Source: Thermotoga sp. SG1 (lineage in GTDB: Bacteria > Thermotogota > Thermotogae > Thermotogales > Thermotogaceae). From it: 64,000 bases of DNA. The stretch covers positions 62,001 to 126,000 of the forward strand of contig NZ_LNDD01000002.1 in assembly GCF_002865985.1 (NCBI RefSeq), given 5' to 3'. The position numbers and the translations under genes were made by a program. The notes beneath the pieces were generated by a model. The model was not told the DNA's origin. It ran no database searches and saw only the letters and a program-made list of their open reading frames with translations. Below are positions 16,729-20,261 of the stretch, piece by piece; position 1 is the stretch's first letter, and each line of letters opens with the position of its first letter.

Positions 16729-19286
16729 GTTTCAATACTTCCTTAGAGGTATGGAAACAGCACACGATTGAACTCTTCGAGAATCAGTTCTGCAAGGTTT
16801 CAATACTTCCTTAGAGGTATGGAAACACTAGTGACGACTTGGTCATTGGTCTTATTGAGACAGGTTTCAATACTTCCTTAGAGGTATGGAAACGGAGGTG
16901 ATACAATGAGTAACATGCTATGGGGAGGTGGTTTCAATACTTCCTTAGAGGTATGGAAACTTACACCACCTCCTATCAAAATCCACTTCCAGTCAAGTTT
17001 CAATACTTCCTTAGAGGTATGGAAACCTTTTTTTATACCACTATCTTGCCACGTTGTCAAGTTTCAATACTTCCTTAGAGGTATGGAAACTCCCCCTCCT
17101 CTCTCCAGCCTACTTCGTTCCAGCCGGTTTCAATACTTCCTTAGAGGTATGGAAACTAGGTGCGATTGAAGAAATCCCGCAACCGACCACGTTTCAATAC
17201 TTCCTTAGAGGTATGGAAACTTTGTTATCTCGAACGTTATTCTGACAACTCCGTCATGTTTCAATACTTCCTTAGAGGTATGGAAACAATTCTATAACCC
17301 GTGGAAATTTCTGCAAAACAAGTGTTTCAATACTTCCTTAGAGGTATGGAAACGTTTTTCCTATTTCTTGAAATAATTTTTTCCACTCCGTTTCAATACT
17401 TCCTTAGAGGTATGGAAACCCGTGGTCATTGGTGGTGGAACATCCACGGTCACGAGTTTCAATACTTCCTTAGAGGTATGGAAACTCCATGAATCTGATT
17501 CGGTTTTCGTGAGTAATGAACCCCGTTTCAATACTTCCTTAGAGGTATGGAAACACAACTATATCTATTTCCTCCACTTTTAGACTCGTAGTTTCAATAC
17601 TTCCTTAGAGGTATGGAAACCTATCTGCTCGGTCAGGATCGGAAGCAGCGTGTCGTGTTTCAATACTTCCTTAGAGGTATGGAAACACAATCTCTCCCTC
17701 TTCAGTGATAAAATCCTTTTCCAGTTTCAATACTTCCTTAGAGGTATGGAAACTATATTTGTGCGTGGGATTGTGCGAGTGAATGAAAGTTTCAATACTT
17801 CCTTAGAGGTATGGAAACTATCTGAACGATGCTACAAATTCAGCAACTGTTTCAAGTTTCAATACTTCCTTAGAGGTATGGAAACTGTTCCACCCCTTGA
17901 AGACAAGAGAAACATGATCCATTTCCGTTTCAATACTTCCTTAGAGGTATGGAAACATTGAGGGAGCTACGTGAAAAGGTGGGTTTGTCTGGTTTCAATA
18001 CTTCCTTAGAGGTATGGAAACTTCAAGTTTGCCGTTGTGGCTCCTTCTAATGTTCGAGGTTTCAATACTTCCTTAGAGGTATGGAAACCGTATTCTGTAA
18101 AGCTCTTTTCAAGGCTTTTTATTCGTTTCAATACTTCCTTAGAGGTATGGAAACGCATACAGACGCTCGCCTATTTTCTTCACAGTCACCTTGTTTCAAT
18201 ACTTCCTTAGAGGTATGGAAACGTGTGGTGCAGAACATCGGGCTTGGACAAACCAAGAGTTTCAATACTTCCTTAGAGGTATGGAAACAAGCTGGACGGT
18301 GAAAAAGAAGGCGGTGAGTAAGTAGTTTCAATACTTCCTTAGAGGTATGGAAACGCGTTGTTCTTGCATCGCTTGTAATGGGGAGCGTGAGTTTCAATAC
18401 TTCCTTAGAGGTATGGAAACTAGTCCTTGAGGATACGAGTCTAAAAGTGGAGGAAAGTTTCAATACTTCCTTAGAGGTATGGAAACCTTGGAACGAATAC
18501 TTCGTTGTTTTTTTCGTCAACTCGTTTCAATACTTCCTTAGAGGTATGGAAACACGTCCTTCACAAACGTGGTGTGAGACTGTTCCCGCCCGTTTCAATA
18601 CTTCCTTAGAGGTATGGAAACGTCTCCGGGGGAGCGAGATGCTCGCAAATGCACAAGGTTTCAATACTTCCTTAGAGGTATGGAACCCCCCAGCCCGTTT
18701 CCAAAGCGGCTTGGGCAAGCATAGTTTCAATACTTCCTTAGAGGTATGGAAACTTTCTGATCCCTCCTCCACAACGTCCCGGTACCTGGTTTCAATACTT
18801 CCTTAGAGGTATGGAAACACTGCAAGGAAAAATTGTATATCTTTCTGTAAGAACGTTTCAATACTTCCTTAGAGGTATGGAAACATCTCCTCTCTGTCTT
18901 CACCGTCGTGAATTTTCTTGTTTCAATACTTCCTTAGAGGTATGGAAACCGTCTACACCTGAGGAGCCTGTACGAGTTCTAAGAATGTTTCAATACTTCC
19001 TTAGAGGTATGGAAACTTGGCTATGAGGTGTACAATGTCAGCTTGGCGGCGGGTTTCAATACTTCCTTAGAGGTATGGAAACTCTACAAGGGCGTTGAAC
19101 AGTCTTCTCGACATGATACTCCCGTTTCAATACTTCCTTAGAGGTATGGAAACCCCATGAATTCATAAACATGGATTCGTCCAGTTGCTGGTTTCAATAC
19201 TTCCTTAGAGGTATGGAAACGAGACAGAAGAGACTTCCGAGACTGAATAAACTCCTGTTTCAATACTTCCTTAGAGGTATGGAAAC
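16729..19286 (-). CRISPR. CRISPR array, 39 repeats and 38 spacers
   Basis: Thirty-base repeats begin GTTTCAATAC and end GTATGGAAAC on the plus strand; I located 39, the first at 16729 and the last at 19257. Spacers are 34-41 bp. All repeats look identical except the one at 18658-18687, where the penultimate base is C instead of A. Read on the minus strand the repeat ends ATTGAAAC, the classic 8-nt crRNA 5' tag of type I-B and III systems, so I place the transcript on the minus strand with the leader at the right. That is inference, because the clearest adjacent promoter points the other way. No cas gene lies within the window, so processing must depend on cas genes elsewhere. All ORFs within this interval are repeat-encoded artefacts. 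Confidence 0.98.
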
Positions 19287-19369: not shown

Positions 19370-19398
19370 TTGACAAATATATGCAAAATGTATATAAT
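19370..19398 (+). promoter_or_regulatory. Strong promoter of the ferredoxin/NifX unit
   Basis: TTGACA (19370-19375), exactly 17 nt, TATAAT (19393-19398). The spacer carries an imperfect dyad (ATATA...TATAT around GCAAAATG) that could be an operator. A start about 7 nt downstream would put the 5' end of the RNA almost on the GAGGTG ribosome site at 19405. Confidence 0.75.
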
Positions 19399-19416
19399 TT
19401 CTTTGAGGTGAAAACC

Positions 19417-19455
19417 ATGAGAAAAGTGTGCTGGTGTTGGTGGTGTGGTTATTAA
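19417..19455 (+). CDS. 12-residue Cys/Trp-rich leader peptide (upstream ORF)
   Basis: ATG-led ORF encoding MRKVCWCWWCGY then TAA. GAGGTG lies 6 nt before the ATG and is the first ribosome site after the promoter. Three Cys and three Trp in 12 codons is far from chance composition. The stop lies 2 nt before the 5' arm of a hairpin that would sequester the ferredoxin ribosome site. It may be a regulatory leader peptide or a functional metal/redox micropeptide. I know no family for it. Confidence 0.65.
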   Translation: MRKVCWCWWCGY

Positions 19456-19457
19456 TG

Positions 19458-19502
19458 CTCCCTCCCTATTGCAAAAAGATAAAAAACAGGCTTGGGAGGG
19501 AG
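19458..19502 (+). promoter_or_regulatory. Hairpin sequestering the ferredoxin ribosome site
   Basis: CTCCCTCCC (19458-19466) and GGGAGGGAG (19494-19502) are perfect 9-nt complements flanking an A-rich 27-nt loop. The 3' arm contains the ribosome site for the ATG at 19509. A ribosome terminating at 19455 would cover the 5' arm and expose the site. The structure is visible; the regulation is inferred. Confidence 0.65.
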
Positions 19503-19508
19503 ATTGGA

Positions 19509-19862
19509 ATGGAATCCAAGAACACTCCGGTGATTGGAAAAGATGTCCTTGGACGAGAAGTGCGTGATCTTTCTAAAATTCCCTGGTGGGGTGTAGATAG
19601 AAAAGCAATAGAGTGGTATCCAGTCATCGACTACGACAAATGCACATCGTGTGGCATTTGCTTTGTAACTTGTGGAAGGCGAGTATTTGACTTTGACAGA
19701 AAAGAAGGGAAAGTGATGGTAGCATGTCCTTACAATTGCATGGTTGCATGTCAGACATGTATGAATCTTTGTCCAACAGAAGCAATAAGTTTTCCTGATG
19801 TTTCTTACATAAAGAAATTGGTCGCACAGAATAAAATCGTAAAAAAGCTTTTGAAATTATAA
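19509..19862 (+). CDS. 4Fe-4S polyferredoxin-like protein
   Basis: A 117-residue protein from ATG 19509, well spaced behind GGGAGGGAG. An N-terminal region (GREVRDLSKIPWWGVDRKAIEW) precedes CTSCGICFVTC and then CPYNC, CQTC and MNLCP motifs, enough cysteines for two [4Fe-4S] clusters with two extra Cys. It is probably a cytoplasmic electron carrier; there is no signal peptide. A longer frame back to GTG 19428 overlaps the leader peptide and lacks a ribosome site. Its neighbour is a NifX-like protein, which suggests a role in Fe-S or metal handling. The remembered neighbour of TM1816 in T. maritima is similar. Confidence 0.85.
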   Translation: MESKNTPVIGKDVLGREVRDLSKIPWWGVDRKAIEWYPVIDYDKCTSCGICFVTCGRRVFDFDRKEGKVMVACPYNCMVACQTCMNLCPTEAISFPDVSYIKKLVAQNKIVKKLLKL

Positions 19863-19937: not shown

Positions 19938-20261
19938 ATGATCATTGTTATTCCCGTTTCCGAAAACAAGGGAAAAGACTCTCCCATCTCGGAACACTTC
20001 GGAAGAGCCCCCTATTTTGCGTTCATGAAAGTGGAAGATGGTAAAATACTGGATATCTTTGTTGAAGAAAACCCCTTCGCGCAGGATCATGTTGCCGGTG
20101 CTGTTCCGAATTTTGTGAGGCAAAAAGGAGCAGACCTTGTCATAGCAAGAGGAATTGGAAAGAAAGCAGTTTCTGTTTTTGAATCCTCCGGTGTAAAAGT
20201 AATAAGAGGAGCTTCAAGAACAGTGGAGGAAGTAGTGAGAAAATACCTGAGTGGAGAGTAG
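19938..20261 (+). CDS. NifX/NafY-like (dinitrogenase cofactor family) protein, shortened tail
   Basis: A 107-residue single-domain protein: [28 protein letters not shown] and [15 protein letters not shown] are typical of the NifX/NifB-C-terminal fold, which binds Fe-S or FeMo-cofactor precursors; in non-diazotrophs the role is unknown. It starts at ATG behind GGAGGAGGTG. The remembered T. maritima homologue TM1816 (solved structure) continues into a His-rich tail. Here TAG at 20259 stops translation, but the following in-frame codons read KDSDYKGHHH before TGA, a relic of that tail. Probably co-transcribed with the ferredoxin. Confidence 0.88.

Follow-up and report, generated by a model that had tools for sequence, protein, structure and literature searches.

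A conserved Cys-Trp leader peptide and a repeatedly rebuilt RNA mask suggest translational control of a ferredoxin gene in Thermotogota

A Leader Locus Upstream of a Ferredoxin Gene

A short reading frame with its own ribosome site (SD) lies directly upstream of a ferredoxin gene in the window analysed here, a stretch of 64,000 nucleotides from Thermotoga sp. SG1, an arrangement found in leader-peptide translational attenuation or coupling. The locus raises the question of whether the peptide is real and, if so, whether its translation governs that of the ferredoxin. The initial annotation, made from the letters alone, had described a promoter, an SD, the frame for MRKVCWCWWCGY, its TAA and a perfect complementarity of 9 bp between CTCCCTCCC and GGGAGGGAG, each of which was recovered in place and exact to the base (Table 1). 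Promoter-like sites of whatever quality average 0.4 in shuffled versions of this stretch, and TTGAC[A/C]...TATAAT occurs at an unchanged position in all five of the other peptide-bearing genomes of the genus Thermotoga, throughout which the GAGGTG SD of the leader is also conserved. From these elements we infer a transcript start at ~19405-19407, and the NifX/NifB-type gene is presumably co-transcribed with the ferredoxin gene.

Table 1. Coordinates of the leader locus and the genes that follow it (window positions).
Feature	Position	Strand	Remarks
Promoter TTGACA-N17-TATAAT	19370..19398	+	Consensus matched at 12/12 bases
Leader-peptide ribosome site (SD) GAGGTG	19405..19410	+	Read directly; 6 nt to start codon
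Leader peptide ORF MRKVCWCWWCGY, 12 aa, ATG 19417, TAA 19453-19455	19417..19455	+	
5' arm CTCCCTCCC (anti-ribosome site)	19458..19466	+	2 nt past leader stop; 9-bp perfect helix with 19494-19502
3' arm GGGAGGGAG, holds ferredoxin ribosome site	19494..19502	+	
Small 5-bp hairpin TTGGA-atggaa-TCCAA, ferredoxin start codon in loop	19503..19518	+	Predicted, MFE and centroid structures
Ferredoxin (TM1815 orthologue), 117 aa, proposed controlled gene, ATG 19509	19509..19862	+	Fer4 and dicluster Fer4 matches
NifX/NifB-type protein (TM1816 orthologue)	19938..20261	+	PF02579 Nitro_FeMo-Co E=6.6e-23; 1t3v and 1o13 matched over full length

No intrinsic terminator was found in the leader region, so the mask would be translational only, and the locus lacks the transcriptional form of a trp- or cys-type attenuator. 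A comparison of the locus with Rfam 15 returned no RNA family above its gathering score. Upstream, a CRISPR array (window positions 16906-19286, repeat GTTTCAATACTTCCTTAGAGGTATGGAAAC) stops ~85 bp short of the leader promoter; in three related genomes (G091, G093, and G094) CRISPR-associated-looking genes, judged by eye, are found upstream of the leader instead (L094, L096, L097).

Coding Constraint on the Leader Peptide

Homologues of the ferredoxin (E<=1e-15) were identified in 32 of the 103 Thermotogota genomes, the searches covering one genome per species. The peptide was found upstream of nine among the closer homologues, and a whole-genome pattern search of the phylum then returned these nine together with one unrelated match that has no start and no SD. 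M-R-K/R-V/I-C-x-C-W-W-[C/R/H]-G-[H/Y/D]-stop is thus present in nine of the 103 genomes, belonging to four genera in three families, and every copy directly precedes the same ferredoxin, with 46, 48, 53, 56, or 76 nt between leader stop and ferredoxin start. Within the genus Thermotoga the variants are MRKVCWCWWCGY (two genomes), MRKVCQCWWCGY (three genomes), and MRKVCRCWWCGH; the more distant copies are MRKICHCWWCGH in G002 (family f5), MRRVCQCWWRGH in G099 (genus g5), and MIRKVCFCWWHGD in G101 (family f11), where the TTG start overlaps the stop of a thioredoxin gene. When M-R-K/R-V/I-C-x-C was searched in Thermotogota without the Trp part, the extra matches were due to chance only (L115, L116, L117).

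Comparison of the nine leaders revealed 4 variable columns at first, 3 at second, and 8 at third codon positions, the changes being mostly synonymous, and 44 pairwise residue differences as compared with 79 +/- 8 when the changes were relocated (permutation P about 1e-4). Judged by this comparison, the leader peptide is real and under coding constraint. Only two Cys and two Trp residues are invariant, residue 6 varying between W, Q, R, H, and F and residue 10 (the third Cys) between C, R, and H, and conservation extends to R2, K/R3, G11, and the short C-terminal tail. This is a different pattern from that of a trp- or cys-type attenuator, in which a run of regulatory codons is conserved and the rest is free to vary.

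On the ferredoxin tree, the deeper forks of which are poorly supported, the distribution of the peptide requires two changes, which can be taken as a single gain and a loss in G089. G095, a further member of the genus Thermotoga (L016/L107), has no leader peptide; its ferredoxin copy is divergent (66% identity), contains an in-frame TAA, and is possibly decayed or foreign.

Masking Helices and Their Rebuilding

The local hairpin in the window has a predicted energy of -23.1 kcal/mol (z = -3.5), and none of 200 shuffled sequences was as stable. Perfect pairing between the peptide ORF (with 14 nt beyond it) and the start region downstream extends over 9 bp at most, a length reached by 2.3% of dinucleotide shuffles and by none of 74 start regions taken from other genes. 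Taken alone, this helix beats chance only moderately, and the relatives therefore had to decide; the comparison of their leader sequences is convincing. A second small hairpin, UUGGA/UCCAA, with the ferredoxin AUG in its loop, may by its predicted fold tighten the mask.

In the genus Thermotoga the 5' arm, located 5 to 15 nt past the stop codon's first base, forms helices of 9, 9, 8, 11, and 9 bp with the ferredoxin ribosome site, the 11-bp helix being that of G096; G093 has an imperfect helix only (7 bp contiguous, P=0.39). Family f11 uses a different anti-SD arm, CCCUCCUCU, just past the stop and also 9 bp long (P = 0.0025). There is no anti-SD arm in f5 and g5, where it is the ferredoxin start codon that is paired instead, with codons 9-12 (W9-[C/R]10-G11-H12), in a helix of 13 bp in f5 and 12 bp in g5, lengths that 0 of 2000 shuffles reach. 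Between f5 and g5, the change of codon 10 from UGU to CGU is matched by a change of its partner from ACA to ACG, a compensatory replacement of U-A by C-G that is synonymous in the ferredoxin. The placement of the 5' arms in these leaders means that the arm is always where a ribosome at the leader end would sit. On the sequences, the masking is preserved as a logic and not as a sequence, the helix having been built in at least three different ways in Thermotogota. In L009 (G002) and L011 (G099) the leader codons for W-[C/R]-G-H and the ferredoxin codons for M-S-T-P are reverse complements of each other; a single RNA stretch is there under a double constraint, from the peptide sequence and from pairing with the start codon.

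The initial annotation had proposed a leader peptide with a structure masking the ferredoxin start, and had named conservation of the peptide and of the pairing in related strains as the check. Both comparisons came out in its favor, the coding constraint supporting the one and the pairings in relatives the other.

Modelled Effect of Ribosome Position

The effect of a translating ribosome was calculated with a one-ribosome folding model that assumes a footprint reaching 15 nt downstream of the P-site, the predicted transcript start, and the energies used for 75 °C. In this model the 5' arm in the window is covered only when the P-site is at one of the last two codons. The energy needed to open the ferredoxin start region is 16-19 kcal/mol at 37 °C with the P-site on codons 1-9, and falls to 7.0 kcal/mol at codon 11 and 5.9 kcal/mol at codon 12; a P-site on the last codon is calculated to lower it from 16.5 to 5.9 kcal/mol at 37 °C and from 8.8 to 2.5 kcal/mol at 75 °C. 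The last-codon P-site lowers the modelled opening energy in all nine Thermotogota leaders, with the smallest drop (about 3 kcal/mol at 37 °C) in G094, G002, and G099.

Pauses further upstream do not act alike. With a ribosome at codons 5-9, the modelled start region stays closed in the genus Thermotoga and f11, whereas in f5 and g5 (G002 and G099) the opening energy is already down from codon 5-6 onward and most pauses open the site. Arrival at the last codon is the sole position predicted to open all nine leaders, so that the masking is relieved, in silico, at one defined position. Because mid-leader pauses differ in their effect, arrival at the leader end is the best candidate for the switch, and attenuation by plain Cys or Trp starvation fits less well. 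The suggestion that completing the peptide opens the ferredoxin site is thus borne out by the model in all nine leaders; the companion claim, that pauses at Cys or Trp codons keep it closed, holds for Thermotoga but fails in G002 and G099, where pauses from about codon 6 are predicted to open it.

Copies beyond Thermotogota

A search of 84,980 genomes with the exact motif pattern yielded 35 stretches, of which four are intergenic and have a ribosome site and a start: two Thermotogota copies, L073 (Syntrophomonadaceae), and L074 (Desulfobacterota). The other 31 were rejected as chance matches, lying inside or opposite long reading frames or having no start and ribosome site. This genome-wide scan used the strict motif and so misses divergent copies, and the copies outside Thermotogota were picked using gene context after the fact. 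The L073 peptide, IRKKRLCPCWWRGH, is encoded between ArsR and TauE genes. At L073 2414-2433 there is a good ribosome site with no ATG, GTG, or TTG, and the only suitably placed codon, ATT, is proposed as the start, reflecting either a rare ATT start or a sequencing difference. The L074 peptide, MKRFTLICRCWWRGY, follows ArsP_1-UspA-Thioredoxin_3 and lies 65 nt ahead of an MFS transporter gene. A second Desulfobacterota copy, MLKKPKRLSVVCSCWWQGG (L134/L205), came from a relaxed search in the order of the Desulfobacterota genome, in which the match count was about equal to that of a reversed-pattern control; this copy consequently rests on its gene company, the order being ArsR-ArsP_1-Thioredoxin_3-small membrane protein-rhodanese-peptide, followed by a repeat-bearing stretch, FmdE, and TauE. 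The ~600 nt of repeat-bearing sequence between this peptide and the next genes has an inverted copy ~4.5 kb away, so the separation may be recent, and the repeat is plausibly an insertion that split the leader from its gene. The repeat is dispersed, with inverted copies at L205 7230-7679 and 11830-12015 that are 93-97% complementary.

Loosened patterns, applied to the order that includes the Syntrophomonadaceae genome and to sampled genomes from the phyla of both outside genomes, yielded no more copies, nor did a relaxed-tail search or a scan around 30 thioredoxin loci, and none of the 69 matches in a scan of viral contigs was convincing.

The RNA pairing is less uniform in these copies. The L074 leader has an 11-bp helix (P = 0.0005) that joins the bases spanning codon R13 to the stop with those immediately ahead of the downstream gene's ribosome site, so that here too the 5' arm lies at the leader end, yet in the model the opening energy hardly changes. 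The longest helix of L073 is not significant (7 bp, P=0.22), and a last-codon ribosome gives no opening in the model.

Gene Neighborhoods of the Peptide

All three outside copies keep the motif within clusters of ArsR, ArsP_1, Thioredoxin_3, rhodanese, and TauE genes, and the position of the peptide varies: it comes after ArsP-Trx in L074 and in G101, after rhodanese in L205, and after ArsR in L073. These clusters tie the peptide family, by gene company, to sulfur- or arsenic-type transport, with ferredoxin not its sole partner. The locus had been annotated as a ferredoxin-NifX device, a description that does not extend to the copies in the two other phyla.

Ferredoxin orthologues without the peptide in Thermotogota, and also that of the peptide-bearing G101, adjoin genes for TusA, DsrE/DsrF, DsrH, and a YeeE-type sulfur transporter, with LbpA-like, dihydrolipoamide dehydrogenase-like, and TauE or SLAC1 genes as further neighbors. 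The G101 ferredoxin gene also adjoins an ArsR-TusA fusion, a repressor joined to a sulfur carrier (L101 3112-3693, reverse complement of the stored locus). Two reports describe ArsR-type repressors responsive to sulfane sulfur in sulfur-oxidation clusters (PMC10451225, PMC12423496).

Proposed Mechanism and Alternatives

In the mechanism that we propose, the RNA would begin just before the leader SD and fold such that bases just past the leader stop sequester the ferredoxin ribosome site in a helix. A ribosome at the last two leader codons or the stop would cover the 5' arm and break this helix, and the opened site would admit a second ribosome, starting translation of the ferredoxin (and NifX). 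Since a terminating ribosome would act in this way in the model, ferredoxin translation is probably coupled to the arrival of a ribosome at the leader end, and we assign this translational switch a probability of about 0.6. Any lingering at the leader end would prolong the opening, and the nascent peptide would set the dwell time there in answer to a signal handled by the neighboring genes, with sulfane sulfur, sulfite or thiosulfate, and a thiophilic metal or metalloid as candidates.

Peptide conservation, pairings, positions, and gene company, as read from the sequences, together with the modelled effect of ribosome position, lead us to infer both arrest and a signal. The ribosome probably stalls at the peptide end, and its dwell time is probably set by the nascent chain, which we consider the most likely control because it is residues and not codons that are conserved over great distances, those of C-x-C-W-W-x-G-x-stop most strongly, and the pairings are rebuilt. 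An arrest that depends on a ligand is possible rather than probable, and a sulfur-type ligand is a guess from the gene company. We tentatively suggest that C-x-C-W-W-x-G-x-stop marks a new family of ribosome-arrest micropeptides spanning several phyla. Within the ribosome, the nascent CxC might sense sulfane sulfur, or else a metal or metalloid with an affinity for thiols, and the paused ribosome might activate transporters of the sulfur/arsenic type or, in the case of Thermotoga, a ferredoxin of low potential together with NifX.

The signal first proposed for this locus was the supply of Cys and Trp: a shortage of the charged tRNAs would slow ribosomes in the leader, and the ferredoxin site would stay closed. 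Three Cys and three Trp codons in twelve, a ferredoxin that is itself Cys-rich, and the modelled closure with a ribosome at codons 5-9 in the genus and f11 all agree with this, but codons 6 and 10 are free to vary beside two Cys and two Trp codons that are not, and a supply sensor has no need of the conserved R2, K/R3, G11, and short tail. In G002 and G099, moreover, a pause at Cys7 or at the Trp codons is predicted to open the site, reversing the response, and we regard sensing by codon pausing as improbable. Plain translational coupling, with the leader read constitutively to its end and expression held at a fixed level, would dispense with sensing altogether. Short coupling ORFs are common, and in the model termination alone suffices to open the site; the conservation of C-x-C-W-W-x-G across phyla beside sulfur/arsenic-type genes is left unexplained, however, and we give this account little credence.

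That conservation at the level of residues, over three phyla and at varying positions in the clusters, would also suit a free-standing micropeptide, whether a binder of metal or sulfur or a partner of ferredoxin, thioredoxin, or the transporter, possibly acting in trans and with the RNA pairing as a secondary coupling. Together with one more Cys or a His, its CxC could coordinate a soft metal. A free product would nevertheless need neither the constant placement of the Thermotogota copies, always 46-76 nt before the ferredoxin, nor a masking helix built repeatedly, and the gap in L205 is filled by a repeat that perhaps arrived recently; such a product seems to us rather unlikely. Hardly credible is a chance ORF, or a longer ferredoxin whose N-terminus would take in the leader region. 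The ferredoxin reading frame can be extended back to GTG 19428, for a product of 144 aa, but the variable spacing between leader stop and ferredoxin start shows that the extended frame is not kept, conservation tracks the peptide frame, and the internal start at 19509 has its own ribosome site. Coupling of ferredoxin translation to arrival at the leader end, with the dwell time there probably set by the nascent chain, is the reading that we prefer.

Relation to Known Systems and Significance

Several known leaders resemble parts of this arrangement. In mycobacteria, Cys-rich attenuating leaders require runs of Cys codons and are otherwise variable in sequence; there, too, a short Cys-coding ORF controls downstream genes, as is proposed here, whereas the present family has just two invariant Cys and a conserved W-W-x-G-x-stop tail. 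In erm-type attenuation (ErmCL), a macrolide stalls the ribosome inside the leader, which frees a masked ribosome site. The position of the leader ribosome would likewise free a masked site here, but it is at the extreme end of the leader that the ribosome would be effective, and nothing points to a drug. SpeFL is an arrest peptide on which a small molecule acts near the peptide end. TnaC also undergoes small-molecule arrest near the end of a short peptide, acting on transcription termination (PMC8429421). Such end-of-peptide arrest is the kind of event proposed for the present leader, which, unlike TnaC, has no terminator and bears no sequence relation to either peptide.

The nearest described system is CutF/CutO of Rhodobacter capsulatus, in which a small upstream ORF carries a motif for metal binding and, at its C-terminus, one that resembles a stall motif, while the gene that follows has its ribosome site covered by a stem-loop, with the nascent chain proposed as sensor and opener; relatives of CutF precede metal-homeostasis genes (PMC9973294). 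The logic is shared, in that a small upstream ORF with a putative metal-binding motif precedes a gene whose ribosome site is shielded by RNA structure. CutF, however, is exported, has a signal peptide and a proline-rich stall motif, and senses copper (PMC9973294), whereas the leaders here are peptides of 12-19 residues with neither a Sec signal peptide nor a proline-rich C-terminal stall motif, and their neighbors are of the sulfur/arsenic type. The initial annotation knew of no described system like this one, and our literature search agrees, having found no mention of the motif and no account of TM1815/TM1816 regulation.

Few bacterial leader peptides with a conserved amino acid signature are known, and recurrence across phyla with consistent neighbors is rarer still. 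The 5' regions of hyperthermophiles are reportedly often too short for leader-based control (PMC3636130). A sensor function would make the peptide a rare case of such control in hyperthermophiles and a means of translational sensing of sulfur or metal stress alongside ArsR-type repressors. With its peptide sequence kept while the RNA lock was rebuilt several times, the family would offer a clean comparative system for telling constraint at the level of the peptide from constraint at the level of the RNA.
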